Assembly (NCBI RefSeq): GCF_023101205.1
Contig: NZ_CP078078.1
Span: 2,489,411-2,553,410 of the forward strand
DNA: 64,000 nucleotides
Reading direction: 5' to 3'
Source: Microbacterium aurugineum
Lineage (GTDB): Bacteria; Actinomycetota; Actinomycetes; Actinomycetales; Microbacteriaceae
In this document: positions 2,586 through 19,878 of the stretch, piece by piece
Numbering within the stretch: position 1 is the stretch's first letter
Layout: each line of letters starts with the position of its first letter
The notes under the pieces: generated by a model
Told to the model about the DNA's origin: nothing
The model's input: only the letters and a program-made list of their open reading frames with translations
Databases searched by the model: none
Made by a program: the position numbers and the translations under genes

Positions 2586-2612
2586 GTGCCCTGTCGTGAG
2601 TGCCCTGTCGTG
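2581..2612 (+). repeat. 14-bp tandem duplication at a stop/start junction
   Basis: CGTGAGTGCCCTGT occurs at 2581-2594 and again at 2595-2608, and a third partial copy (CGTGA.TG) begins at 2609. The first copy contains the TGA stop of the preceding gene and the third contains the likely GTG start of the next. An original GTGA overlap seems to have been opened by duplication. Confidence 0.75.
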
Positions 2613-3974
2613 ACTGTTCTGACGCTTCTGCGCGAGTCGCTCGGCGCGCTCATCGACACCGACGAGGCCTCGCTCGAGGAGGCCAGAGCCGATCGATCGG
2701 GTCACGCGGCACCCGGACGCCCTCTCGCCGTCGTGCATGCGGAATGCGTCGAAGACGTCCAGAAGACGATGCGCATCGCCACCGAGACCCGTACGCCGGT
2801 CGTCGTCCGTGGTGCCGGGACCGGTCTGGCCGGCGCGGCGAACGCCGGCAGCGGCGAGATCGTGCTGTCCCTGCGGCGCATGACCAAGATCCACGAGGTG
2901 CGTCCCGACGATCTGCTCGCCGTCGTCGAGCCGGGCATCCTCAACGCCGACCTCAACACCGAACTCGCACGGCACGGGCTCTGGTGGGCGCCCGACCCCG
3001 CGAGCCGCGACATCTCCACGGTCGGCGGCAATATCGCCACCGGCGCGGGCGGACTGCTGTGCGCTAAGTACGGTGTCGTGCGCGATGCCGTGCTCGGCGT
3101 CGACCTCGTCCTCGCCGACGGCAGGCTGCTGCATCTCGGGCATCGCAGCGTCAAGGGCGTGACGGGCCTCGACCTCACCGCGCTGGTCGTGGGCTCCGAG
3201 GGCACTCTGGGCGTGATGGTCGGAGCGACGCTGAAACTGCGCAGGCTCGTCCCGGGCGAGACCTGCACGATCACCGCCACCTTCCCCGGCGTCCGCGCCG
3301 CTGCGGCGGCCTCCGCCGCGGTGACCGCCGCAGGCGTGCAACCGGCGATCATGGAGCTGATGGACGCGGCCAGCCTCGCGGCCGTGCACGCGTTGCTCTC
3401 GCTCCCCGCCCCCACGTCAGGGGCGGCCCAGCTGACCATCCAGACCGATGGCCCCGCGGCCGTCGCCGAGGCCGCCACGATCGCCGAGATCCTCCGCGCC
3501 CACGAGGGGGTCACGGTCGTCTCGCGCGACCGCGCCGAAGGGGAACGGCTGCTCGCGATCCGCCGGTCCATGCACGCCGCGATGGCGTCGCTCGGCACCA
3601 CACTCATCGAGGACGTCTCGGTGCCGCGCAGTGCGATGCCCGCGATGTTCGACGAGATCGCGCGCATCGAGCAGGAGTACGCGCTGACGATCCCGACCGT
3701 GGCGCACGCCGGCGACGGAAACCTGCACCCGAACTTCCTCTTCGACGGTCCTGAGGCACCGCCGGAGGTCTGGGCCGCGGCCGACGAGCTGTTCCGCGCA
3801 GCGATCCGGCTGGGCGGGACCCTGACCGGTGAGCACGGCATCGGGGTCCTCAAGCGCCGCTGGCTCGCCGACGAGCTGGGCGAGGACCAATGGCAGCTGC
3901 AGCGTCAGATCGCCGCGGTGTTCGACCCGCTCGGCATCCTCAACCCCGGGAAGGTCTTCAGCCCCGATGCCTGA
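2610..3974 (+). CDS. GlcD-type FAD-linked oxidase (glycolate or D-lactate dehydrogenase family)
   Basis: 454 residues from the GTG at 2610; a GTG at 2586 inside the tandem repeat would add eight unconserved residues. The N-terminal FAD (PCMH-type) domain shows TPVVVRGAGTGLAGAAN, DISTVGGNIATGAGGLLCAKYG and VVGSEGTLGV. The C-terminal FAD-oxidase domain shows PTVAHAGDGNLHPNF and LTGEHGIGVLKRRWL, and ends LGILNPGKVF. Family members oxidise 2-hydroxy acids (glycolate, D-lactate, D-2-hydroxyglutarate) and pass electrons to quinones or an Fe-S partner. No GlcF-type Fe-S subunit lies nearby, so it may act alone as D-lactate or 2-hydroxyacid dehydrogenase. D-lactate would suit the neighbouring cell-wall sugar salvage genes, but that is only a guess. 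Confidence 0.85.
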   Translation: MTVLTLLRESLGALIDTDEASLEEARADRSGHAAPGRPLAVVHAECVEDVQKTMRIATETRTPVVVRGAGTGLAGAANAGSGEIVLSLRRMTKIHEVRPDDLLAVVEPGILNADLNTELARHGLWWAPDPASRDISTVGGNIATGAGGLLCAKYGVVRDAVLGVDLVLADGRLLHLGHRSVKGVTGLDLTALVVGSEGTLGVMVGATLKLRRLVPGETCTITATFPGVRAAAAASAAVTAAGVQPAIMELMDAASLAAVHALLSLPAPTSGAAQLTIQTDGPAAVAEAATIAEILRAHEGVTVVSRDRAEGERLLAIRRSMHAAMASLGTTLIEDVSVPRSAMPAMFDEIARIEQEYALTIPTVAHAGDGNLHPNFLFDGPEAPPEVWAAADELFRAAIRLGGTLTGEHGIGVLKRRWLADELGEDQWQLQRQIAAVFDPLGILNPGKVFSPDA

Positions 3975-4389: not shown

Positions 4390-5169
4390 TCAGATGCCCT
4401 GCCAGGCCGGCTTGTTCGCGAAGGTGTAGCGGTAGTAGTCGGCCAGGGCGAGGCGAGACGCCGCGGCCTCGTCGACGACGACCGTGGCGTGCGGGTGCAG
4501 CTGGATCGCAGAACCCGGGAGGAGCGCGGTGAGCGGCCCTTCGACCGCGCGGGCGACAGCGTCGGCCTTCCCCTCGCCGAACGCGAGCAGCACGAGGTGG
4601 CGCGCCTTCAGGATGGTGCCGAGCCCCTGCGTGATGCAGTGCATCGGCACGTCGTCGATCGAGTCGAAGAAACGGGCGTTGTCTTCGCGGGTCTGCTCGG
4701 TGAGGGTCTTCACACGGGTGCGCGAGGCGAACGAGGAACCCGGCTCGTTGAAGCCGATGTGCCCGTCGGTGCCGATCCCGAGGATCTGCAGGTCGACACC
4801 GCCGGCGGCGTCGATCGCGGCCTCGTAGTCGTCACCCGCGTGCTGGATCGTCGCGAGCGCACCGTTGGGCACATGGATCCGCTCCGGATCGAGGCCGAGC
4901 GGCTCCACGACCTCGCGCGAGATGACCGACCGGTAGCTCTCCGGGTGCGCGGGGTCGATGCCGACGTACTCGTCCAGGGCGAAGCCTCGCAGCTGCGAGA
5001 GATCACGACCGGCCAGCTGGGCGCGCAGAGCCTGATAGACGGGCAGCGGAGTCGATCCCGTTGCGAGGCCGAGGACGGCGTCGGCACGACGCTCGATCAG
5101 CTCCACGATCTCGGTGGCGACCAATGCGCCGGCGGCCTCGGCATTCTCGACGATGACGACCTCAGCCAT
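4390..5169 (-). CDS. nagB: Glucosamine-6-phosphate deaminase
   Basis: 259 residues, the usual NagB length. It converts glucosamine 6-phosphate to fructose 6-phosphate and ammonia in the cytoplasm. Motifs: LGLATGSTPLPVY (phosphate binding), ALDEYVG with D66, and GIGTDGHIGFNEPGSS with D135, H137 and E142, the known catalytic set. An upstream extension is open, but MAEVVIVENA is the family start and its ATG overlaps the kinase stop by 8 bp. It is last in the minus-strand amino-sugar operon. No nagA (GlcNAc-6-phosphate deacetylase) lies in this window. Confidence 0.96.
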   Translation of the reverse strand: MAEVVIVENAEAAGALVATEIVELIERRADAVLGLATGSTPLPVYQALRAQLAGRDLSQLRGFALDEYVGIDPAHPESYRSVISREVVEPLGLDPERIHVPNGALATIQHAGDDYEAAIDAAGGVDLQILGIGTDGHIGFNEPGSSFASRTRVKTLTEQTREDNARFFDSIDDVPMHCITQGLGTILKARHLVLLAFGEGKADAVARAVEGPLTALLPGSAIQLHPHATVVVDEAAASRLALADYYRYTFANKPAWQGI

Positions 5170-6127
5170 GCGGGACGATCTCCTTCTCGGTGATGGATGC
5201 GCCGACGAGTGCGGCGCCGAAAGCGGCAGCGGGAGATCCCGCGGGGAGCAGTTCGATTCTCTCATCCAAGCGGAGCGACCGCATGAACGGTGACGCCTCC
5301 GCCCCCGCATGCAGCGCCGCGCGGACACCGTTCTCGAGACGGTCACCGAGCGCGGTGAGCCCGCCCCCGATGATGACGGTCTCGACATCCGCCGAGAGCA
5401 CGAGCACACGCACCGCGGCCGCAGCGCCGTGATAGAGATCATCGCGAAGGGCGGACGCCAGGGGATCGCCGGCGTCGGCGGCATCGAAGATGTCCCTGAT
5501 CGGCAGCGCCCCCGGCCGCCCCCAGGCCTTGGCGAGTGCTCCCCCACCGCAGAAGGTCTCGACACAGCCGCGCTGCCCGCAGCCGCAGAGCCGTCCGTGC
5601 GGATCGACCGAGATGTGCCCGACCTCACCGGCCGTCCCGCGGGCGCCGCGCCAGATGCGTCCGTCGAGCACGATCCCGGCCGCGACGCCGGTACCGAGAT
5701 TCAGATATGCCATCGACCCGGTGACCCCGCTGAGCACGGCCGCCCCGAGGGCCGCCGCCTTCACGTCGTTCTCGACGCGGAAGGGTACTCCGAGGGCGCG
5801 CTCGGCTCGATCCGCGAGATCGAGTGACTCCACGCCGAGATTGACCGCGTGGACGACGCGCCCCGCTTCGGCGTCTACCAGCCCCGGGATGCCGATGCCG
5901 ACGGAGCCGATGCGCGAGATCGGAAGGCCGGCCTCGTCGGCGAGCGCGGCGACCGACGCCACGATGCTCTCGACGACCGCCTCCTCACCCCATCCGGTCG
6001 GCCGGCGGTGGCGACCGATGATCTCGCCGGTGGCGTCGACGGCGACCGCGTCGATCTTGGTGCCGCCGACGTCCAGGCCCACTCGAATCTGCCGACCGGC
6101 TCGGTCGGCGGCTCCTGCACCCTTCAT
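5162..6127 (-). CDS. ROK-family sugar kinase (probable N-acetylglucosamine or glucose kinase)
   Basis: 321 residues. The ATP-binding DVGGTK is at residues 19-24. The ROK signature is GEVGHISVDPHGRLCGCGQRGCVE, with the E-x-G-H sugar contact and a CxCGxxGC zinc site. No DNA-binding domain is present, so this is the enzyme and not the regulator. Between the repressor and nagB, phosphorylation of GlcNAc (or glucosamine) released by the hexosaminidase is the likely role; glucose cannot be excluded. The start lies 43 bp after the repressor stop. Confidence 0.85.
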   Translation of the reverse strand: MKGAGAADRAGRQIRVGLDVGGTKIDAVAVDATGEIIGRHRRPTGWGEEAVVESIVASVAALADEAGLPISRIGSVGIGIPGLVDAEAGRVVHAVNLGVESLDLADRAERALGVPFRVENDVKAAALGAAVLSGVTGSMAYLNLGTGVAAGIVLDGRIWRGARGTAGEVGHISVDPHGRLCGCGQRGCVETFCGGGALAKAWGRPGALPIRDIFDAADAGDPLASALRDDLYHGAAAAVRVLVLSADVETVIIGGGLTALGDRLENGVRAALHAGAEASPFMRSLRLDERIELLPAGSPAAAFGAALVGASITEKEIVPHG

Positions 6128-6170: not shown

Positions 6171-7358
6171 TCACGACACTCCCAGCTGTCCGGAGAGCAC
6201 CATCACCGCAGCACCGCGCAGGACGATGTCGTCCTGATGCGTCAGTCGCACGATGACGTCTTCGAACACGCCCTCGAGGGTCCGTGCGTGGAGGGTCTCG
6301 ATGGCGGCGTCGATCAGGATGCCGTCGAGCAGGTCGGCCGGACCGGACAGGACGACCTCGGACAGGTCCAGCGCGGCGACGATGGGGGCGATGGCGATCG
6401 CCATGCGGGTCCCGGCGTCACGGAGGATGTCGTCGCGGGAGTCGGGGTCGGCAGCGATCGCGGCACCCAGGCGGCTGACGCTCAGCCAGGCCTCGAGGCA
6501 GCCGTCCTTGCCGCAGGCGCATCGCGGTCCGCCGTCGGTGCCGACGACGACGTGTCCGATCTCCCCCGCGGCGAAGCGGCTCCCGAGCAGCGGCTGGCTT
6601 CCGGTGATGAGACCGGCACCGACGCCGCGTCCGATCTTGATGAGCATGAAGTCGGCTTTGGCTTCGCCGAAGGTGTACTCGGCCAACACGGCGGCGTTGG
6701 CGTCGTTCCTGGCGAGCACGGGAAGGTCGAGATCGACCCCGAGCTTCGCTTCGAGCGGGAAGTTCGTCCATCCGAGGTTCGGTGAGCTCAGCACGACCCC
6801 GTCCGGCCGCACCACACCGGGCGTGCCGATCCCGACGCCCAGCAACGGCTGGGTGGAGGCGGCGATGAGCGTCTGCGCGAGCTCGCGCAGCGCGGCATAG
6901 GCGGCTTCGCCGTCGGGCGACTCCGGGCGCGGCACCTCACGACGTTCGAGCACGTCGCCGTCGAGGCTCAGGACGGCACCGGTGAAGGCGCTGGGGCCGG
7001 AGAGATCGAGACCGAGGATCTGGTGACCGACGCGGTCGATGTCGATGAGGATCGGCGGCTTGCCGGGACCGACGGCCTCGCGGACGCCCATCTCGATGAC
7101 GATGCCGTCTGCGATGAACTCGGCGACCAGGTCGGAGATGGTCACCCGGGTCAGCCCCGTCTCGCGGGACAGGTCAGCGCGGCTCATGGCTCCCGCGTGG
7201 TACAGCGTCTGCAGGACCAGGGCGCGATTGTGTCCGCGCGCGTGCTCCGGAAGCACTTTCGAGCGGGACCGCAGGTGGCGCCCCGGGCCGAAGGCATGCG
7301 TGTTCACGCCGAGGTACTCCACCGGCGAGGCGGGACGCTGTTCATCCGAAACGGACAT
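6171..7358 (-). CDS. ROK-family transcriptional repressor (NagC/XylR type)
   Basis: 395 residues. A winged helix-turn-helix (about 45-90, recognition region MSRADLSRETGLTRVTISDLV) precedes a ROK sugar-binding domain with GEIGHVVVGTDGGPRCACGKDGCLEAWLS. Family members repress amino-sugar or sugar genes until an effector such as GlcNAc-6-phosphate binds. The gene lies between the hexosaminidase fusion and the kinase and has its own promoter, with a palindrome at 7360-7384 covering the -10, so autoregulation is likely. With a -10 only 7 nt from the ATG the transcript should be leaderless. A similar palindrome at the start of the DSD1-like gene suggests it controls both transcription units. Confidence 0.88.
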   Translation of the reverse strand: MSVSDEQRPASPVEYLGVNTHAFGPGRHLRSRSKVLPEHARGHNRALVLQTLYHAGAMSRADLSRETGLTRVTISDLVAEFIADGIVIEMGVREAVGPGKPPILIDIDRVGHQILGLDLSGPSAFTGAVLSLDGDVLERREVPRPESPDGEAAYAALRELAQTLIAASTQPLLGVGIGTPGVVRPDGVVLSSPNLGWTNFPLEAKLGVDLDLPVLARNDANAAVLAEYTFGEAKADFMLIKIGRGVGAGLITGSQPLLGSRFAAGEIGHVVVGTDGGPRCACGKDGCLEAWLSVSRLGAAIAADPDSRDDILRDAGTRMAIAIAPIVAALDLSEVVLSGPADLLDGILIDAAIETLHARTLEGVFEDVIVRLTHQDDIVLRGAAVMVLSGQLGVS

Positions 7359-7437: not shown

Positions 7438-10400
7438 TTACTTTCGATGCTCGACGGGAGTGCTCTCCGAGCGCTCCCTGAGACGGGCGACCAGGCCGGC
7501 GACGATCCCCTCCCTGGCCTCGATCGTGAGGGGCTTGCCGGGCACTCCCGGACGACGCTGATCGGGCGTGGGCCCATCCAAGGGACGATACCGCACACCC
7601 GCGGCGCGCAGACGGCGCAGATGGGTCGGAAGGCGCCGAGCGAAGTCGGCGTACGGTGCCGGCTCGCCGCCCTCCCAGAGCCGTTCGGCGATCGCCGCGA
7701 GCCGCGGGAACATCGCGAAGTCGACACGGTCACGGGTGGGCAGATGCTCGCTCCAGACGTTGGCCTGACCGCCCACCGCGCCCTCCTCGACGCGAAGCGA
7801 GTACGCGCGCTCGATCGTCAACGGCGGCCCCACCCTGATCGGCTCCTCCGCCGACTCCGATTGCGGGTAGTCGAGATAGGCCTCGAGGTCGGGACAGGCC
7901 ACGACGGGGATCCCGCGCGACAGGGCGGCCCGCATCGCCACCGGCCCCCGCCAGGCGAGGATCCGCACTCCTTCCGGCACCTCGCCCTCGAGCACCTCGT
8001 CCCACGCGAGCGCCGTGCGCCCTCTGGCCCGGACGTGCGCGACGAAGTGCGCCGTGAACCACGGCTGCACGTCGTACGGGGTGGCGAGTCCGAGTTCCGT
8101 CATCCGCGCGGCGGCCGCCGGGCTCTCCGCCCACTCGGTCACGGGGACCTCATCGCCGCCGATCCCGATCCACTCCGAGGAGAACACCTCGCACAGGGCA
8201 TCGATCGCCGCGCGCCCGAACGCCAGCGCGGCCTCGGTCGGCGCGAGGGTGCGGGGATTGACCCCGAAGCGCTCCCACGCGGAGACAGCCGGGTCGGCGA
8301 CATCGACGTTGCCGAGCTGCGGGTAGGCGGCGAGCGCGGCCTGGACATGGCCGGGCAGCTCGACCTCCGGCACGAGCGTCACGAAGCGATCGGCCGCGTA
8401 GGCGACGAGCTCGCGCAGCTCCGCGGTGGTGTAATACCCCTCATGCACGCCCGGCTCGACGGTGGCGAGCGGACCATGACCGCGCTGCGTCGCTTCTCGG
8501 CGCGAGCCGACCTCGGTGAGCAGCGGGTAGCCGGGAACCTCGAAGCGCCACCCCTGGTCATCGGTGAGGTGCAGATGCAGGACGTTGAGGTGGTGCTCGG
8601 CGAGGAGGTCGATCACCCGACGCACCTCGTCGACCGGCCGGAAGTGCCGCGCCACATCGAGCATGACCCCGCGCCAGCCGTATGCGGGCGCCCCCTCCCA
8701 CGCACCGGCCGGGACCAGCGCCGACTCCGCATCCGGATCGCGCAGCTGTCTCAGCACCGTGGCGCCCCGGAACACCCCGGCCGCACTCGCGCCCCGGACC
8801 TCGATGCCGTCGGCGTCCACGCGCACGCGGAAGGCCTCGTCGGCGATGCGGCCGTTCGACGCCGCCGCGGCGCCGAGGTCACCGTCGATGAGCAGCCGGA
8901 TGGGTGCGGCGGCGGCATCGTGCCCTCCACCGCCCAGCCGCGCAATCGCGGCGGCGACCTCCGGTGACCCGGCGATCGGTGTCCCGCTCGTCCAGACGAA
9001 GCCGGGCTCCGCAGCATCGATGTGCGCCCGGACGCGGGGTACCGTCGACCGATGTGCCGCCGGTGGCATCCTCAGCGCCCGTCCCGGCGCGGCCCCCGTG
9101 GGTTCGCCGTCGGAGACCACGGCCACGCCGTCGACCAGCACCTCGACGATGCCCTGCGGAGCGGTGAAGGGGCTGTCGAAGGTGGCGCCCGCGGCGATCG
9201 TCTCCGGATCGAACAGCACCAGGTCGGCGATCGCTCCCTGCCGGATGACGCCGCGCGGGGCGTCTCCGCGGTCGAGGCCCAAGCGACGCGCCGGCGTCGC
9301 GGAAAGGTGCTGGACAGCTTCCTCCAGCGTGAGGACTCCGAGCTCGCGCACGTAGTGTCCGAGGTACCGGGGGAAGGTGCCACGGCCCCGCGGGTGCGGT
9401 CGGGCACCAATCAGGATCCCGTCGCTTCCTCCCGAGTGCTGCGGATGGCGCATGATCGCGCGCACGTTCTCCTCATCACCGATGTGCATCAGGATCCCGG
9501 TCGCACCGGCATCGGCGAGCACCGTGTCGAGCACGACGTCGACGGCCCGTCGTCCGGTCGTCTCGGCGATCTCCGCCACCGTGCGACCGACGAGATCGGC
9601 GAGTGCGGGGTTGGCGGTGCCGGAGATCTGGATCTGCGTCCAGTCCGCCGTCTCGCCGTGGAACCCGTCGCAGCCGATGTCCTCGAGCTCTACGCGCACG
9701 GCTTCGCGGCCGGCGGCGTCGAGGTCAGAGATGACACGCAGCAGGTCACCCGTCGCTGCCAGCCTGCTCGGCAGCAGAGCCGCGAGCGTCGTCGCACCAG
9801 GCAGGTAGGGGTAGGTGTCCAGGGTCACGTCGACACCGTCGGCGAGGGCCCCATCGATCACTGCCAGCAGTTCCCCGGCGCGTCCCCTGTTCGGAGCGAA
9901 GTTCATGGTGGCGTGCGTGAGATGCACGGGGCAGCCGGTGCGGCGACCGATGTCGAGCGCCTCCCGGTAGGCATCGAGCGCTCCCCCGCCGTAGCTGCGG
10001 GTGTGCGGGGCCCAGTATCCGCCGCGCTCGGCGACCACCCGGCACAGCGCCTCGAGTTCGGCCACGTCGGCATACATCCCGGGCGTGTAGGTGAGGCCGC
10101 TCGACATCCCGAAGGCGCCGGCGTCGAGAGCCGCGCCCAGCAGCTCCGCCATCGCGGTGATCTCCTCGGCGGTCGCCGGACGGTTCTCGTGACCGACCAC
10201 CATCATCCGGAGGTTCCCCTGGGGCACGAGGACAGCGGCGTTCGCGACCGTCGCCGCGTCGATCGCGGAGAGGAGGTCGTCCATGGTGCGCCAGGGCGTG
10301 TCGGCGGGCATCCCGTTCCATCCGGCGATCTGGCCCGGGATGACCGCGGCGGTGGCGTCGTCGAGCGGCGCATAGCCGAGACCGTCCTGGCCGAGGACCT

Positions 10401-10704
10401 CGGTCGTCACGCCCTGCCGGATCTTCGCGTCGTGGGCGGTGCCGCTCAGCACCGCGAGCTCGCTGTGGGCGTGCATGTCGATGAATCCGGGGGCGAGCAC
10501 GAGACCGCGCGCGTCGATCTCGATCGCCCCGTCCGGAAGGTCGAGGACATCGTCCGGCTCGGCGACCGGCAGGACCGCGACGACCCGGGCCCCTTCGACC
10601 GCCACGTCGGCAATGAAGCGGGCGGCACCCGTCCCATCGACGACCGTCGCTGAGCGATACACCCGCACCAGCCCGACCGCAGCCTTCTCCGCGCTCAGAA
10701 GCAT
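7438..10704 (-). CDS. N-acyl-D-amino-acid deacylase fused to family-20 beta-N-acetylhexosaminidase
   Basis: 1088 residues in one uninterrupted frame. Residues about 15-535 are an amidohydrolase of the D-aminoacylase type: HAH (H78, H80), H234, H264, catalytic SDG (D428), and PHPRGRGTFPRYLG (437-449). The position that is normally the metal-ligand Cys in a GNCG motif is GQDG here (D107). Residues about 565-665 fit the small GH20b domain, and 670-1020 the GH20 barrel, with GIGGDEVP giving the Asp851-Glu852 catalytic pair and HLHLTDDQGWRFE. No signal peptide, so a cytoplasmic enzyme working on imported material. Predicted reactions: removal of an N-acyl group from D-amino acids or a related amide, and release of terminal GlcNAc. 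It overlaps the DSD1-like gene by 10 bp. As a fusion it suggests one compound carries both bonds, such as a cell-wall fragment. Confidence 0.9.
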   Translation of the reverse strand: MLLSAEKAAVGLVRVYRSATVVDGTGAARFIADVAVEGARVVAVLPVAEPDDVLDLPDGAIEIDARGLVLAPGFIDMHAHSELAVLSGTAHDAKIRQGVTTEVLGQDGLGYAPLDDATAAVIPGQIAGWNGMPADTPWRTMDDLLSAIDAATVANAAVLVPQGNLRMMVVGHENRPATAEEITAMAELLGAALDAGAFGMSSGLTYTPGMYADVAELEALCRVVAERGGYWAPHTRSYGGGALDAYREALDIGRRTGCPVHLTHATMNFAPNRGRAGELLAVIDGALADGVDVTLDTYPYLPGATTLAALLPSRLAATGDLLRVISDLDAAGREAVRVELEDIGCDGFHGETADWTQIQISGTANPALADLVGRTVAEIAETTGRRAVDVVLDTVLADAGATGILMHIGDEENVRAIMRHPQHSGGSDGILIGARPHPRGRGTFPRYLGHYVRELGVLTLEEAVQHLSATPARRLGLDRGDAPRGVIRQGAIADLVLFDPETIAAGATFDSPFTAPQGIVEVLVDGVAVVSDGEPTGAAPGRALRMPPAAHRSTVPRVRAHIDAAEPGFVWTSGTPIAGSPEVAAAIARLGGGGHDAAAAPIRLLIDGDLGAAAASNGRIADEAFRVRVDADGIEVRGASAAGVFRGATVLRQLRDPDAESALVPAGAWEGAPAYGWRGVMLDVARHFRPVDEVRRVIDLLAEHHLNVLHLHLTDDQGWRFEVPGYPLLTEVGSRREATQRGHGPLATVEPGVHEGYYTTAELRELVAYAADRFVTLVPEVELPGHVQAALAAYPQLGNVDVADPAVSAWERFGVNPRTLAPTEAALAFGRAAIDALCEVFSSEWIGIGGDEVPVTEWAESPAAAARMTELGLATPYDVQPWFTAHFVAHVRARGRTALAWDEVLEGEVPEGVRILAWRGPVAMRAALSRGIPVVACPDLEAYLDYPQSESAEEPIRVGPPLTIERAYSLRVEEGAVGGQANVWSEHLPTRDRVDFAMFPRLAAIAERLWEGGEPAPYADFARRLPTHLRRLRAAGVRYRPLDGPTPDQRRPGVPGKPLTIEAREGIVAGLVARLRERSESTPVEHRK

Positions 10705-11912
10705 GTCGCGACCGCTCCGATCACGCGAGGATCAGCGGCGTCGGGATCGTCGATGACCGCGACCACCCGCCACTTGTCGAACGCCGTGCACGGGTGTGAG
10801 AGACCGAGACGCACGACGTCGCCGACGGCCACCGCCGCGCCGTCCGTGAGGTGGAGGAAGGCGTGCTGGTCGTTCAGGGCGGTGATCTCCCCCTCGACGG
10901 ATTGCGGCACGGGCAGGTCGAGATCGAACGGCACATCCCGCCGACCCGCATCGAGCAGGGCGAGTCCGTCCTCCGGCTGCGACACGACGCGGGACCAGGC
11001 GTGCATCGCGGAGCGAAGCGGCGCGGTGCCGGTCACGGGGCCGAACGGGGACATCCGTGAATAGAAGCCGTCGTCGTGGATCTGGAACGCGCCCGAGCGG
11101 AGGACGACATCCGCCCCGGTCCCCGCGGAGGAAAGCACAGCCGCCGCGCGGTCGGGAAACGCGCTGCCGCCGGCACTGAGCACGGGCCGGACACCTTCGG
11201 GGTACTCCACCCTCGTGTGCAGTGCGACCATGGTCCGGAGGTAGGCGTCGACAGCCTCGATGGACGCGTCACTGCGGTCCGGTCCGAACGGTCCCTCGTA
11301 ACCCGTGACACCGGCGAGCCGGAGACCGGGGGCGTCCGAGATCGCCTGAGCGATCCGCTCCCCCTCCGCCACGGTCCGCGCGCCCGTACGGCCGTGGGCG
11401 CCGCCCAGCTCGACGAGGACATCGAGCGGTCGTGCCGCATCACCCATCCCCGCCGCCAGGATCTCGACCCCGGCGAGCGAGTCCGCCCCGCACAGGACGC
11501 GCAGATCCTCGTCGGCGGCGAGCAGCTCACCGAGTCGACGCACGGCGGCGCGGTCGGTGACGGCGTTGGCGATCAGGACGGTCGGGACGCCCGCGTCGAT
11601 CGCCACCTCGGCCTGCCACGGTGTGGCGACCGAGATGCCCCATGCCCCCGCGTCGAGGAGCCGCTGCCAGAGCGCCGGCGCCATCGTGGTCTTGCCGTGC
11701 GGGGCGAGCAGCACCCCCTGCTCCTTCGCCCAGGCGAACACGGTCTCCTCGTTGTGCCCCAGCGCCTCCTCGTGCACCGTGAGCACCGGGGTGACCAGAT
11801 CGGAGAGGCGCAGTCCGGCATCGGGCACCTCCGAGAGACGGAGTCCCGCGGCGCGCGCCGGGAAGCCCTTCGTCCAGGCGCCGAGAACGGGATCCGGAAT
11901 TTGTAGAGGCAT
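10695..11912 (-). CDS. DSD1 / D-threonine aldolase family PLP enzyme (D-amino acid dehydratase-like)
   Basis: 405 residues. N-terminal alanine-racemase-like barrel with the PLP lysine in APHGKTTMAP (K74), and a C-terminal beta domain with the zinc pair His373 and Cys375 in LSHPCTAFDKW, as in eukaryotic D-serine dehydratase. Known members turn D-serine or D-threo-hydroxy amino acids into 2-keto acids or cleave them to glycine. Placed upstream of, and overlapping, the D-aminoacylase fusion and divergent from ridA, it probably consumes the freed D-amino acid. The transcript should be leaderless: TAGCCT (11919-11924, minus strand) lies 6 nt before the ATG. Confidence 0.85.
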   Translation of the reverse strand: MPLQIPDPVLGAWTKGFPARAAGLRLSEVPDAGLRLSDLVTPVLTVHEEALGHNEETVFAWAKEQGVLLAPHGKTTMAPALWQRLLDAGAWGISVATPWQAEVAIDAGVPTVLIANAVTDRAAVRRLGELLAADEDLRVLCGADSLAGVEILAAGMGDAARPLDVLVELGGAHGRTGARTVAEGERIAQAISDAPGLRLAGVTGYEGPFGPDRSDASIEAVDAYLRTMVALHTRVEYPEGVRPVLSAGGSAFPDRAAAVLSSAGTGADVVLRSGAFQIHDDGFYSRMSPFGPVTGTAPLRSAMHAWSRVVSQPEDGLALLDAGRRDVPFDLDLPVPQSVEGEITALNDQHAFLHLTDGAAVAVGDVVRLGLSHPCTAFDKWRVVAVIDDPDAADPRVIGAVATCF

Positions 11913-11931
11913 CTAACAAGGCTACTAGGCT
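11900..11931. promoter_or_regulatory. Back-to-back leaderless promoters with a ROK-like palindrome
   Basis: Two -10 boxes face away from each other: TAGCCT (minus, 11919-11924) for the DSD1-like gene and TAGGCT (plus, 11926-11931) for ridA, each 6 nt from its ATG. TTTGTAGA (11900-11907) and TCTAACAAG (11912-11920) form an imperfect inverted repeat over the minus-strand start, sharing the TTGTTAG half-site with the palindrome before the ROK repressor. Confidence 0.6.
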
Positions 11932-11937
11932 GGCGGC

Positions 11938-12342
11938 ATGACCGCGAAGATCCGAGTTTCCACCGACGCCGCCCCCGCCCCCGCTCACACCTTCTCCCAG
12001 GGGATCCGCAAGGGTCCGTTCGTGCAGGTCTCCGGGCAGGGCCCCGTCGACCCGCAGACGAACGAATACCTCCACCCGGGGGACGTCGCCGCGCAGACCA
12101 CTCGCACCCTCGAGAACGTCAAGGCGATCGTGGAGGCATCGGGCGCGACCTTCGATGACGTCGTGATGCTGCGCGTCTACCTCACCAAGCGCGAGGACTT
12201 CCCGATCATGAACGACGCCTACGGTGCGTTCGTCACGGCACACACCACGAGCGGCGTGCTCCCCTCGCGCACCACCGTGTTCACCGGCCTGCCGCGGGAG
12301 GAGATGCTCGTCGAGATCGACGGCATCGCCATCATCGACTGA
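11938..12342 (+). CDS. ridA: RidA family enamine/imine deaminase
   Basis: 134 residues, standard length. Family residues include the substrate arginine R111 in LPSRTTVF and the C-terminal VEIDGIAI. RidA proteins hydrolyse reactive 2-aminoacrylate-type intermediates made by PLP dehydratases to keto acid and ammonia. Divergence over a 25-bp spacer from the DSD1-like dehydratase gene makes that pairing direct: the dehydratase makes the enamine, RidA clears it. Leaderless transcript predicted. The following 108 bp hold only the putative promoter of the transpeptidase gene (possible -10 TACCAT, 12405-12410). Confidence 0.9.
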   Translation: MTAKIRVSTDAAPAPAHTFSQGIRKGPFVQVSGQGPVDPQTNEYLHPGDVAAQTTRTLENVKAIVEASGATFDDVVMLRVYLTKREDFPIMNDAYGAFVTAHTTSGVLPSRTTVFTGLPREEMLVEIDGIAIID

Positions 12343-14168: not shown

Positions 14169-16388
<2,220 letters not shown>

Positions 16389-16565
16389 CAGGTGGTTCTC
16401 CGCTCTGATAGTCAATTTGTCTCGACACCAAGATACCTGAGTGGCTCTGACCGCGTGGCCGGACCGGTCCCGGCGACGCCTCCCTGGGCACGACGCGCGA
16501 GCACGCCGAAGTGAAATGTTCCGCGGGGACGTGTGCCTCCGCGCCGGAGGGGTTAGCCTGGGTGC

Positions 16566-17024
16566 ATGTCCGAACTGCGCATGGTCGAACTCTCCGCTGC
16601 GACGATCGTCGCCGTGAACAACCTGTCGCTCAAGCCCGGACAGGAGCAGTTCCTCGCTCCCGTCTCGTACGGGATCGCGGCCACGGTCATCAATCCGAAG
16701 ACGTCCTGGCAGCGGGTGATCCTCGACCGCAACGAGGTCGTCGGCTTCGTCAGCGCGAACTTCGACGACGAAGCGCCGGAGGAGCACTTCCGCTCCGTGC
16801 TGTGGCGCATCAACGTGGACGCCGACGATCAGGGACGCGGCGTCGGCCGGTATGCGGTCGAGTCCCTCATCGACGAAGCCCGCGCACGTGGTGTCGACCA
16901 CGTCAACGTGATCTACGAGGCCGGAGAGGGCGGTCCGGAGACGTTCTTCCACCGCGTCGGGTTCACGCCCGTCGGCGAGACCGCCTACGGCGAGGTCATC
17001 GCCGAGATCCGAGTCACACCCTAG
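16566..17024 (+). CDS. GNAT acetyltransferase (polyamine/BltD-like)
   Basis: 152 residues. The acetyl-CoA loop reads [21 protein letters not shown], the usual R/Q-x-x-G-x-G/A form, and the C-terminal strand region is [12 protein letters not shown]. The overall outline, with a short N-terminal half and [12 protein letters not shown], recalls spermine/spermidine or diamine acetyltransferases, but the acceptor is not certain. TAGCCT (16554-16559) is 6 nt before the ATG: leaderless. The 177 bp between this ATG and icd hold both promoters. Confidence 0.8.
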
Positions 17025-17035
17025 ACCGGCGGCGG

Positions 17036-17064
17036 GGTCTCGAATCCCCTCCCCCATCGAGACC
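17036..17064. terminator. Possible stem-loop terminator between convergent genes
   Basis: GGTCTCGA (17036-17043) and TCGAGACC (17057-17064) form an 8-bp stem with a 13-nt loop, between the acetyltransferase and the coiled-coil gene. No T tract. Confidence 0.5.
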
Positions 17065-17126
17065 TCGTCGCCCTCGGCTGCGGGACCGCTCCCACGCACC
17101 TTCGGGGCCGCGTGCGCCTCGCGTGG

Positions 17127-17942
17127 TCAGCGATCGCTGCGGGGCGGGTCTCCTCGGCGCCCTCGCGAGGCCCAGTTGGTCAGCGCCGAAGCCGCAGAGG
17201 CCGCCGCTCGTTCGATCGCCTCGGTCGAACGAGCGATGGCATCCTGAGCCGCGTCCTGCCACGCGGGCGCCGCCGGCACCTCTCCCGCCTTGACCCGGGC
17301 CGCGTGCTCGGCGACCTCGAAGGCACTCGCGAGCGCCGCCACCGCATCCCGGTACGCGGCGTACTCGGCGGGTGTCGGCCGATCCCCGAGCCCGCGTCGG
17401 AGCTCGCTCGCCCGCTCCGACGCACGCAGATACGCGACCGTCGCCGGCTGCTTGACGTCGGTCATCTCGGGATAGGCGATCTGGCGCGCGGGGTCGGTCT
17501 CATAGACCATCCACCGGGCGACCACCGCATCATGCGTGGAGCGCAACCGGTCGAGGGGACGGGGAGCGGAAGCCGCGGGAACAGCGGCTCTTGCGGCGTG
17601 GAGCCTCGCCTGCTTGGCCTTGACGTCGGCCGCACACGCTTTGGTGTCGCGCTCGACGTCACGCAGCATGCGTCGGGAACTAGCGACCTGATCGGGGGAC
17701 GCCCGCCGCGCCGCGCGCTCCGCCACGACCCTGGCATGATCGGCGCGGGCGACCTTGAGCGCCGCGCGCCTCTCGACGAGTGCAGCCTGGGCCATCCGGA
17801 GGTCGTGCCGCGCCGCATCGACCTCGAGGCGCCGCCCGCTCATGGTGCTCCGCCTGCGCAGGCCGATCCAGCCGACCGTTCCTGCCGCGGCCGCGGTCGG
17901 CGCGAGCCACCACCACTCGGCGGCGAGCAGCAACGGGTCCAT
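17127..17942 (-). CDS. Membrane-anchored coiled-coil protein of unknown function
   Basis: 271 residues. A short N-terminal hydrophobic segment (about 3-27, with WWW at 10-12) is followed by RRR and a long Arg/Ala-rich heptad-like helix (about 40-120, such as ALVERRAALKVARADHARVVAERAARR), then a second helical part. I do not recognise a catalytic domain. TAGCAT lies 6 nt before the ATG, so a leaderless single-gene transcript is likely. Confidence 0.65.
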   Translation of the reverse strand: MDPLLLAAEWWWLAPTAAAAGTVGWIGLRRRSTMSGRRLEVDAARHDLRMAQAALVERRAALKVARADHARVVAERAARRASPDQVASSRRMLRDVERDTKACAADVKAKQARLHAARAAVPAASAPRPLDRLRSTHDAVVARWMVYETDPARQIAYPEMTDVKQPATVAYLRASERASELRRGLGDRPTPAEYAAYRDAVAALASAFEVAEHAARVKAGEVPAAPAWQDAAQDAIARSTEAIERAAASAASALTNWASRGRRGDPPRSDR

Positions 17943-18005
17943 GATTCGATGCTACCGAGCCTGCGCGTCCGCCGAACCCCTTGCGCGGAGGCTCCGAGAC
18001 GGACC

Positions 18006-18050
18006 TCCTCCGCTGCGGGCCCGGGGCGTGCCCGGGTCCGCAGCGGAGGA
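18006..18050. terminator. Strong stem-loop terminator of the ABC exporter operon
   Basis: TCCTCCGCTGCGG-G-CCCGGG (18006-18025) pairs with CCCGGG-T-CCGCAGCGGAGGA (18031-18050) around a 5-nt loop, a 20-bp stem with one G-U pair. It follows the exporter stop (minus strand) by 13 bp. Confidence 0.88.
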
Positions 18051-18063
18051 AGCGACGACATCA

Positions 18064-19878
18064 TCAGACCAGTGTGCCCTGCCACGCTGCATGCAGCTGG
18101 GCGAACTTGCCCGTGCCTCCGATCAGCGCCTCGGGACTGTCGTCCTCGATGATCTTCCCGTGCTCCATCACCAGCACCCGATCGGCGATCGCGACGGTCG
18201 AGAGTCGGTGCGCGATGATGATCGCCGTGCGGTCCTTGAGCAGCGTCTGCAGCGCGTCCTGGATGAGACGCTCCGACGGGATGTCCAGCGATGCCGTCGC
18301 CTCATCGAGGATCAGCACCGCCGGGTCGGCCAGGAACGCCCTCGCGAACGAGATGAGCTGTCGCTGTCCCGCAGAGACCCGTCCACCGCGCTTGTTCACA
18401 TCGGTGCCGTACCCGTCTGGAAGCGACGAGATGAACTCGTCCGCCCCGACGGCCTTCGCCGCCGCACGGATCTCCTCGAGCGAGGCATCCGGCTTGCCGA
18501 GGGCGATGTTGTCGGCGACCGTGCCGCTGAACAGGTAGGCCTCCTGCGTGACCATCACGATCGCGCGGCGGAGGTCCTTCGGGTGCAGCGAGCGCAGGTC
18601 CACTCCGTCGAGTGTGACGCGTCCTTCCGAGGGGTCGTAGAACCGCGAGATCAGTTTCGCGAGCGTCGACTTGCCCGCGCCCGTCGTGCCCACCAGAGCG
18701 ATCGTCTCGCCGGCGGGGATGTCGAGCGAGAAGTTCGGGAGGATCGTCTTCTCGCCGTTGTAGCCGAAGGTCACCTCGTCGAACCGGATGTGGCCGCGGG
18801 ACTCCCAGAGGTCGACCGGCTTCTCGGGGTCCGGCACCGTCGGCACCTCTTCGAGCACACCCGACACCTTCTCCAGCGCAGCCGTCGCCGACTGGTAGGA
18901 GTTCAGGAACATCGCGATCTCCTGCATCGGCGCGAAGAAGTTGCGCACGTAGAGCACCGCCGACAGCAGCACGCCCACCGTGAGTGCGCCTTCGGAGACA
19001 CGGATCCCACCCCAGAGCACCACGATGCCGAGGACCAGCGCGGCGACGCCCATCAGCCCGGGCTCGAACGTCCCGAACAGCAGCATCGATCGACGGTTCA
19101 CATCGCGGTAGTCGCCCGCGATCTCCTGGAACGCTTTGTCGTTGCGCGGCTCCTTGCGGAAGGCCTTCACGGCCCGGATACCGGTCATGGTCTCGACGAA
19201 CTGCACGATGACCTTCGCGCTGATCACGCGCGACTCGCGGTAGGCGAGCTGCGAGCGCGAGTAGAACCAGCGCATCAGGTAGAACAGCGGCACGCCGCCG
19301 ATCGCGAGGATCAATCCCGACTGCCAGTCCCAGATGCAGAGGGCGATGAACGTGAACACACCGAACAGCACGCCCGAGACGAGCTCGTTCAGTCCACCGT
19401 CGAGGAGTTCCTTGATCGAGTCCAGGTCACTGGTCTGGCGCGAGATGATGCGGCCGGACGTGTAGGACTCGTGGAACTCCAGGCTCAGGCGCTGAGTGTG
19501 CAGGAAGATGCGCTTGCGCAGATCGAGCAGCACCGCCTGGGTGAGCTTGGCGGCGATGATCACGTACCAGGCGATCAGCACCGCGGCCAGCGCTCCGGCG
19601 AGCAGGTAGATGCCGCCGATCATGAAGGTCGGCATCCAGTCGGCCTGCTTCACCGCGGCCGGCAGCGCACGGTCGAGCCCGATGCTGATCAGGATCGGTC
19701 CGGCGACCTGCAGCGCGGTCGAGACGATCAGCACCGCAGCGGCCAGCACGATCTGCAGCTTCAGCGGGCGGACCAGGGAACCGAGCAGTCGGAGGGACCG
19801 ACGACGGATCTCCTTGCTCTCCTCGCGGGTGTACTCGGAACGGTCCTCGTTCTGGGTTCCGGTGATGGCGGAGCTCAT
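18064..19878 (-). CDS. Heterodimeric ABC exporter, subunit B (canonical Walker B)
   Basis: 604 residues: six-helix exporter membrane domain (about 35-330) followed by an ATPase domain with Walker [10 protein letters not shown], signature VSAGQ (departing from LSGGQ) and Walker [12 protein letters not shown] with the catalytic Glu. Together with its partner it forms one complete and one degenerate ATP site, as in BmrCD and TM287/288-type multidrug exporters. The ATG overlaps the partner's stop by 4 bp. Substrate unknown; drugs, lipids or peptides are possible. Confidence 0.92.

Follow-up and report, generated by a model that had tools for sequence, protein, structure and literature searches.

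Within a 64,000-nucleotide stretch of the Microbacterium aurugineum genome (NZ_CP078078.1, positions 2,489,411 to 2,553,410; hereafter the window), a single gene joins a D-aminoacylase-like amidohydrolase to a family 20 glycoside hydrolase (GH20). We evaluated the architecture, neighbours and distribution of this fusion, together with its possible substrate. An earlier note on this DNA had proposed that two normally separate enzymes are fused here in one protein that lacks a signal peptide. The gene is indeed one continuous open reading frame (ORF) of 1088 codons, and its parts are as follows.

7438-10704, minus strand: fusion ORF, a single ATG-started frame of 1088 amino acids (aa)
9061..10704, minus strand: N-terminal half (N-half, aa 1-548), a D-aminoacylase-like amidohydrolase (PF07969), the proposed deacetylase of the oxidised sugar GlcNAc1A, in the role of OngB
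9001..9060, minus strand: joint between the halves (aa ~549-568), an open frame without frameshift
7438..9000, minus strand: C-terminal half (C-half, aa 569-1088 plus stop), a GH20 β-N-acetylhexosaminidase with its GH20b domain (PF02838, PF00728)

The protein has a calculated mass of 115 kDa and matches three Pfam models, namely PF07969 (Amidohydro_3; aa 62-530, E 3e-26), PF02838 (GH20b; aa 569-665, E 4e-7) and PF00728 (GH20; aa 675-1012, E 1e-89, 301.7 bits), while a comparison with PHROGs gave no match. The nearest solved relative of the C-half by sequence is the GH20 enzyme 3rcn (E 8e-112), which aligns with aa 573-1060 of the fusion but is a 543-residue chain without an amidohydrolase half. 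Within the motif IGGDEV the C-half carries D851 and E852, in alignment columns that are nearly invariant and which we take to be the catalytic pair, so that both the catalytic domain and the Asp-Glu pair of a GH20 enzyme are present. No signal-peptide-like start was seen at the N-terminus, as judged by eye without a predictor, and the highest mean hydropathy over 15 residues in this region is 1.75. A frameshift or assembly error at the joint, which the earlier note had considered for nt 9010-9100, is ruled out because the frame is open and the fusion is intact in 39 of 49 related loci listed below. The source genome is a single contig of 3.63 Mb with a completeness score of 100%, and the fusion is 100% identical to the copy in Microbacterium sp. 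CBA3102.

The DSD1-like, RidA, ROK kinase and nagB neighbours named in the earlier note were all confirmed by profile matches, and the genes surrounding the fusion are the following.

10695-11912, minus strand: DSD-like fold-type III pyridoxal phosphate (PLP) enzyme, the proposed OngC (PF14031), overlapping the fusion by 10 bp
11938-12342, plus strand, divergent: RidA family protein, the proposed OngD (PF01042)
6171-7358, minus strand: ROK-family repressor with a MarR-like winged helix-turn-helix and a ROK domain (PF00480 over its cut-off)
5162-6082, minus strand: ROK-family sugar kinase (PF00480), start taken from codon usage, the longest ORF beginning at 6127
4390-5169, minus strand: NagB, glucosamine-6-phosphate deaminase (NF001684 and TIGR00502 above their cut-offs), start taken from codon usage
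16307-18918 of the upstream sequence L059, ~0.5 kb ahead of the window: GH20 and nagA-like genes, in that order

The operon thus runs in the order OngC-like gene, fusion, ROK repressor, ROK kinase and NagB, the last two overlapping by 8 bp, with ridA divergent. The OngC-like protein matches the D-serine deaminase 3gwq (E 2e-57), is 33% identical to Vibrio OngC and groups with both, apart from D-threonine aldolase, in a quick tree with SH-aLRT support only. Together with the PF14031 match, this grouping places it among the DSD/OngC-type enzymes. Two profile scores fall short, with the RidA protein at 95.6 bits against TIGR00004, slightly below the cut-off of 106.25, and the helix-turn-helix of the repressor at 22.2 bits against PF12802 (cut-off 27). 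From its position and domains the ROK repressor is likely the regulator of the operon, and the ROK kinase likely phosphorylates released N-acetylglucosamine (GlcNAc). The upstream GH20 also has no signal-like start, the nagA-like gene scores 222.5 bits against TIGR00221 (cut-off 225.65), and this pair is likely the home of ordinary chito-oligosaccharide utilisation.

This set of protein families is that of the ong cluster of Pseudoalteromonas, which comprises the GH20 enzyme OngA, the D-aminoacylase-like OngB, the D-amino-acid-deaminase-like OngC, the RidA protein OngD and the 2-keto-3-deoxygluconate (KDG) kinase KdgK (PMC9537276). There, OngB deacetylates GlcNAc1A and OngC yields KDG in a pathway serving chitin oxidised by lytic polysaccharide monooxygenases (LPMOs), and the carriers described are Gammaproteobacteria plus one listed betaproteobacterium (PMC9537276). 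By the definition in that paper, an ong cluster combines four or more homologues that are >30% identical to members of the ACAM 620 cluster. The window holds adjacent GH20, OngB-like, OngC-like and RidA genes, with KdgK not at the locus; this comparison is at the level of protein families. Many relatives of the locus add KDG kinase or 2-keto-3-deoxy-6-phosphogluconate (KDPG) aldolase. The window departs from the published cluster in that OngB and OngA form one protein without a signal-like start, the regulator is of the ROK rather than RpiR type, GlcNAc genes lie in the operon and no symporter is seen. In addition, the deacetylase belongs to a separate clade and the actinobacterial host lacks an LPMO of the AA10 type. 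A predicted operon encoding PhNah20A in Paraglaciecola likewise combines GH20, RidA, D-aminoacylase and amino acid deaminase, but as separate genes, and the available part of that paper makes no link to oxidised chitin (PMC7014002).

We propose a route by which the products of the operon would utilise such material. A C1-oxidised chito-oligosaccharide, in its simplest form chitobionic acid (GlcNAc-β-1,4-GlcNAc1A), would be imported into the cytoplasm, where the GH20 half would split off GlcNAc and the D-aminoacylase-like half would then strip the acetyl group from the freed GlcNAc1A. The OngC-like PLP enzyme would convert the product, GlcN1A (glucosaminate), to KDG and ammonia, with RidA clearing the enamine or imine, and this oxidised-end branch would be completed by a KDG kinase and a KDPG aldolase from other loci. 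The GlcNAc would pass through the ROK kinase, the NagA-like deacetylase of the next operon upstream and NagB. In this scheme we infer the substrate, the order of steps, the cytoplasmic location and any channelling. It retains one part of the earlier proposal, a single imported compound taken to central metabolites, for which GlcNAc joined to an N-acetylated, D-amino-acid-like moiety fits; its other part, that the compound is a cell-wall fragment, is unsupported.

The N-half has the residues expected of such a deacetylase at several positions. H78, H80, D107, H234, H264, D428 and R439 are invariant in a 14-sequence alignment, and we further compared 26 actinobacterial rows of the N-half clade with 8 others, including AfDam (1m7j), BbDam (3gip) and Vibrio OngB. 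The last is represented by the Vibrio gene of locus L173, an assignment based on its gene cluster and on agreement with the published residues of PpOngB at 19 of 20 positions (PMC12017989). All 26 clade rows retain both histidines of the HxH motif, both metal-site histidines and the equivalents of Tyr194, Tyr285, Asp368 and Arg379. The N-half therefore resembles PpOngB (9kb1/9kb3; PMC12017989) in keeping His68 and His70 as H78 and H80, the zinc-site residues His222 and His252 as H234 and H264, and the catalytic Asp368 as D428. It is homologous overall to AfDam and BbDam and shares with them a Thr at the Ser292 position, but differs from AfDam in having polar Thr and Asn where that enzyme has Phe191 and Met254, which is consistent with a polar substrate. 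The Gln298 column varies within the clade (A, Q, E, W or R) and lies in a poorly aligning insertion region.

We next considered the genes that accompany stand-alone relatives of the N-half, which are ~45-61% identical to it. At 16 sampled Microbacteriaceae loci (L043-L058) carrying the unfused N-half or its kinase fusion, an OngC homologue lies within ~4 kb in every case, a RidA match is present in 14 (none at L043, where the contig ends, or at L052), and KDG kinase and/or KDPG aldolase homologues lie nearby in 10. By gene, these are 10 KdgA homologues and 7 separate KdgK matches, to which the kinase fusion at L050 is added; GntP occurs at 3. That fusion (L050:8900-11653, 917 aa, from another Microbacteriaceae genome) joins the N-half to a PfkB, KDG-kinase-like domain and adds an independent, second case of gene fusion to the pathway. 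The pattern extends to the phylum, where 13 loci have OngC beside OngB in 12, GntP within 18 kb in 9, a KdgK match in 10 and a KdgA match in 2 (these last two counts each including a weak match at L194), giving KDG kinase and/or KDPG aldolase in 11, one weakly. Unfused relatives in Arthrobacter and Amycolatopsis also occur with OngC, RidA and KDG genes, and the Tsukamurella locus L153 is annotated with RidA, IclR and a sugar kinase, followed by 'alanine racemase', 'D-aminoacylase', KDPG aldolase and a gluconate:H+ symporter. A single Amycolatopsis locus (L120) combines OngB, OngC, RidA, KdgK, GntP, a lactonase and an SBP_bac_1 ABC importer with an unfused GH20, which is 45% identical to the GH20 half of the fusion; judged by gene content, this is an unfused counterpart of the fusion locus. 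The Vibrio block of L173 contains homologues of OngC, OngB, KdgK, KdgA, GH20 and lactonase by blastp, and RpiR-like regulator, RidA-like and symporter-like ORFs by eye.

The fusion itself has a narrow distribution. In a survey of 398 family genomes, with two candidates scored per genome at E up to 1e-60, joint-spanning matches among those listed occurred only in the genus of the window (G000, G106, G258 and G296). The fusion of G106 is 73% identical, the two halves in G258 lie at two contig ends, G296 has a shortened N-half, and five further genomes of the genus gave no match among those listed. Across 396 phylum genomes both halves were matched in G000 and G106 only; a fusion so diverged that one half alone matched would escape both surveys. 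A scan of named genomes gave at least 75 loci from its best 80 matches, figures that are not totals, and 49 of these, L068-L116, are of the fusion type, with one strain represented by two contigs (L108 and L109). All are labelled Microbacterium except L080, an intact fusion from Microbacteriaceae bacterium PS02344, and L116, a shortened one from Actinomycetales bacterium SN12. On the question raised in the earlier note, whether this domain order is confined to Microbacteriaceae, the two surveys located it in the genus of the window only, and the named scan adds L080 and L116 as records with other labels.

Intact fusions, in which the ORF reaches 1063 aa or more and all five tested N-half motifs are present, make up 39 of the 49 loci; 4 (L078, L100, L108, L109) are broken or cut by a contig end, and 6 (L105, L112-L116) have a shortened N-half. 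The shortened halves stay in frame before GH20, an instance of domain decay within a fusion. They lack most or all of the tested metal-site motifs, L105 retaining two of five, and are probably inactive as amidohydrolases. The GH20 Asp-Glu pair is kept in L116 (the locus of G296), the sole shortened locus followed through GH20. A GH20 tree of 48 of the listed loci (L108 has no GH20 part) places the shortening in at least two events. The local OngC gene is gone from all six shortened loci and ridA from five; the contig of L112 is short, and none of the tested neighbours is left at L115. All six of these genomes carry a second gene of the OngB type, as do 10 of 41 others (L085 left out). Five of the six second genes are 74-100% identical to that of L164, itself from one of the six genomes, the copy in G413 is 44% identical, and the one in G411 sits with OngC, KdgA, KdgK, IclR and RidA. 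Fisher tests comparing shortened and other loci gave p values of 0.0004 for OngC loss, 5e-6 for ridA loss and 0.0007 for the second OngB, on which we do not rely because related genomes are counted as independent and the tree needs just two losses. A full-length OngC homologue is encoded somewhere in 37 of 38 intact-fusion genomes searched. It is therefore suggestive, on two loss events, that an intact N-half almost always coexists with an OngC and that the N-half decays in genomes with another such set.

A second OngB-type clade was observed in some Microbacterium (L164:6796-12403, L161:5744-10546). It has the Asp ligand, is 37-39% identical to the N-half and adjoins OngC, KdgA, IclR and RidA, with a KdgK match in L164 only.

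We consider this protein a probable OngB-OngA fusion from an actinobacterial oxidised-chitin pathway, which would cut imported GlcNAc-GlcNAc1A and deacetylate the GlcNAc1A. This assignment is made because the ong cluster uses the same protein families (PMC9537276), because OngC and RidA genes, and in most cases KDG genes, accompany unfused relatives of the N-half, and because elsewhere this N-half has a PfkB kinase as its fusion partner. It is also favoured by the coincidence of decayed N-halves with loss of OngC and ridA and with a second OngB-type gene, by the near-constant presence of OngC in intact-fusion genomes, and by the separate GH20 and NagA-like operon upstream, which fits ordinary chito-oligosaccharides.

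Several observations weigh against this assignment, beginning with the N-half itself. OngB Cys97, a metal ligand, is replaced by Asp107 (Asp in 26/26 clade rows), Lys254 by Thr266 (Thr or His in the clade), Glu226 by Tyr238 (Tyr throughout the clade) and Ser292 by Thr305, and the clade separates from the 8 other rows, which include AfDam, BbDam and one Vibrio OngB, with support of 99/97. In OngB-like and D-aminoacylase-like sequences, conservation of the metal ligands and Lys254 is described as strict (PMC12017989). With Asp and Thr in place of the Cys ligand and the Lys for the α-carboxylate, the N-half has neither the full zinc site nor the carboxylate-binding residue of a subtype V D-aminoacylase, and in both it departs from AfDam and BbDam as well. 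The Asp is also found in Natrinema and Rhodovastum (2/8 other rows) and is therefore not unique to the actinobacterial clade. On residues and tree we reject the N-half as a true OngB, yet it may act in an OngB-like manner.

The genomic context adds further difficulties. Neither KDG kinase nor KDPG aldolase is encoded at the fusion locus and no transporter is seen there. The KDPG aldolase of the source genome (C1:351037) scores above its cut-offs, but the KDG kinase candidates fall below the cut-off of a model that matches 14/14 control genomes. No KDG gene lies nearby at 6/16 of the sampled Microbacteriaceae loci (L045, L046, L048, L052, L054, L055). The OngC-like gene is missing from 8/39 intact loci, in about three events; 6/7 searchable genomes among these carry a full-length OngC homologue elsewhere, and in G402, a metagenome bin, the OngC matches are weak or partial. 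In Azospirillum (L176), D-aminoacylase, RidA and a PLP gene ('alanine racemase') lie beside a peptide importer without a KDG gene, and these three genes alone therefore do not prove the route. No AA10 LPMO (PF03067) was matched in the source genome, which has one GH18 match of 42 bits, and LPMOs occur in 12/398 family genomes and in 2/29 family N-half carriers at ≥~45% identity (G258 and G296), the 29 including the decayed G296 and the partial G311. In the phylum sample an LPMO is present in 15/396 genomes and the N-half (≥49%; two at 43-44% left out) in 15, and 11 of these carriers have an LPMO, but we count them as a single observation because all belong to one genus. A same-genome partnership with an LPMO is thus unsupported in the source genome and in the family.

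Three other explanations were considered. The N-half could be an ordinary N-acyl-D-amino acid deacylase that feeds a D-serine/D-threonine dehydratase, with GH20 acting on unrelated GlcNAc compounds and joined to it for co-expression. Its nearest solved relatives are, in descending score, an N-acyl-D-glutamate deacylase, a D-aminoacylase, 9g5m and PpOngB, so that D-amino acid enzymes outrank the chitin one. Sco4986 of Streptomyces coelicolor, possibly of this clade, is reportedly an N-acyl-D-amino acid deacylase. The N-half gene of L045 adjoins an amino acid permease with no KDG gene nearby, the Azospirillum block has its peptide importer, and OngC deaminates D-serine and D-threonine too (PMC9537276). 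We nevertheless judge this explanation unlikely, in that D-serine use gives no role to the gluconate-type permeases, lactonases, KDG kinases and KDPG aldolases encoded beside many close relatives, the Azospirillum PLP gene groups with D-threonine aldolase rather than with the OngC-like gene of the window, and the clade has entered two independent fusions, one with GH20 and one with a PfkB kinase.

A slimmer chance attaches to another 2-acylamino-2-deoxy-aldonic acid as substrate, GlcNAc-linked or not. Its parent sugar could be GalNAc, ManNAc or a glucosamine with a different acyl group, and it would be formed by sugar oxidases or dehydrogenases instead of LPMOs. The altered carboxylate- and side-chain-binding residues would suit such a compound, as would the scarcity of AA10 LPMOs among family carriers and the lactonases beside relatives at L049, L050, L058 and L120, which fit any aldonolactone. 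Against it, the GH20 domain on the same polypeptide and the nagB gene of the operon indicate GlcNAc, and LPMO products of other organisms could be scavenged. Action on GlcNAc-linked muropeptides, the cell-wall route of the earlier note, appears very improbable. Peptidoglycan does contain both D-amino acids and GlcNAc, ROK and NagB genes can serve wall recycling, and an L,D-transpeptidase gene comes after ridA, but D-aminoacylase types act on N-acyl D-amino acids with a free α-carboxylate (PMC12017989), and GlcNAc-MurNAc-peptides offer the N-half no obvious bond of this kind. The route, which we down-weight, has no need of the KDG kinase and KDPG aldolase beside relatives and leaves them unexplained. 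No GH3 or SIS match of the NagZ/MurQ type was found in the 19 window ORFs run through Pfam, the rest of the genome not having been searched.

Taken as an OngB-OngA fusion, the protein most likely belongs to a variant of the published ong pathway in which proteins that are separate in proteobacteria are joined, and the actinobacterial version was apparently put together separately. LPMOs are common among soil chitin degraders. In the literature searchable here, what becomes of the oxidised sugar end has been worked out only in Gammaproteobacteria (PMC9537276). A conserved block across several actinobacterial families would extend its use to actinobacteria, by way of a deacetylase whose metal site is altered, and many genes annotated as 'D-aminoacylase' would then be reinterpreted. 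Neither the actinobacterial route nor this fusion was found in the open literature at the level of titles and abstract starts, subscription papers and preprints being outside that scope. As a broader model, to which we give even odds, Actinobacteria would have built an oxidised-chitin pathway of their own, independent of the proteobacterial one, around a different, Asp-ligand branch of D-aminoacylase-like amidohydrolases, and Microbacterium would have fused that enzyme to a cytoplasmic GH20, giving a bifunctional, possibly channelling, chitobionic-acid protein with which LPMO-less bacteria use the oxidised ends made by their neighbours. The fusion offers a handle on the pathway, with both proposed steps in one purified protein.

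A cis element that is nearly invariant across most Microbacterium loci lies at the divergent gene pair.

11899-11931, minus strand: 33-bp element that includes the OngC-like start codon

Its 30-base core has one match in the window and 0 in 100 shuffles. The element is present with ≤3 mismatches in 29/31 intact loci with OngC and with ≤5 mismatches in 7/8 intact loci without OngC, and was not found in intact loci L104, L106 and L107. It is degraded or gone (9-15 mismatches) in 5/6 shortened-N-half loci, L105 retaining it, compared with 13-16 mismatches for 20 shuffled control patterns in L068. Since the element persists in 7/8 loci that lost OngC, coding alone does not explain its conservation, and we consider it a candidate operator or promoter for the two divergent genes and a candidate site for the ROK repressor.

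Two further genes of the window were recorded. A FAD-linked oxidase (FAD_binding_4 and FAD-oxidase_C; 2586-3974) adjoins the cluster in Microbacterium, and a relative that is 66% identical directly adjoins the N-half gene in L052. The ORF at 204-2204 (666 aa) combines the regions of an extracytoplasmic function (ECF)-type sigma factor with a zf-HC2 domain and has a long C-terminal stretch of low complexity.

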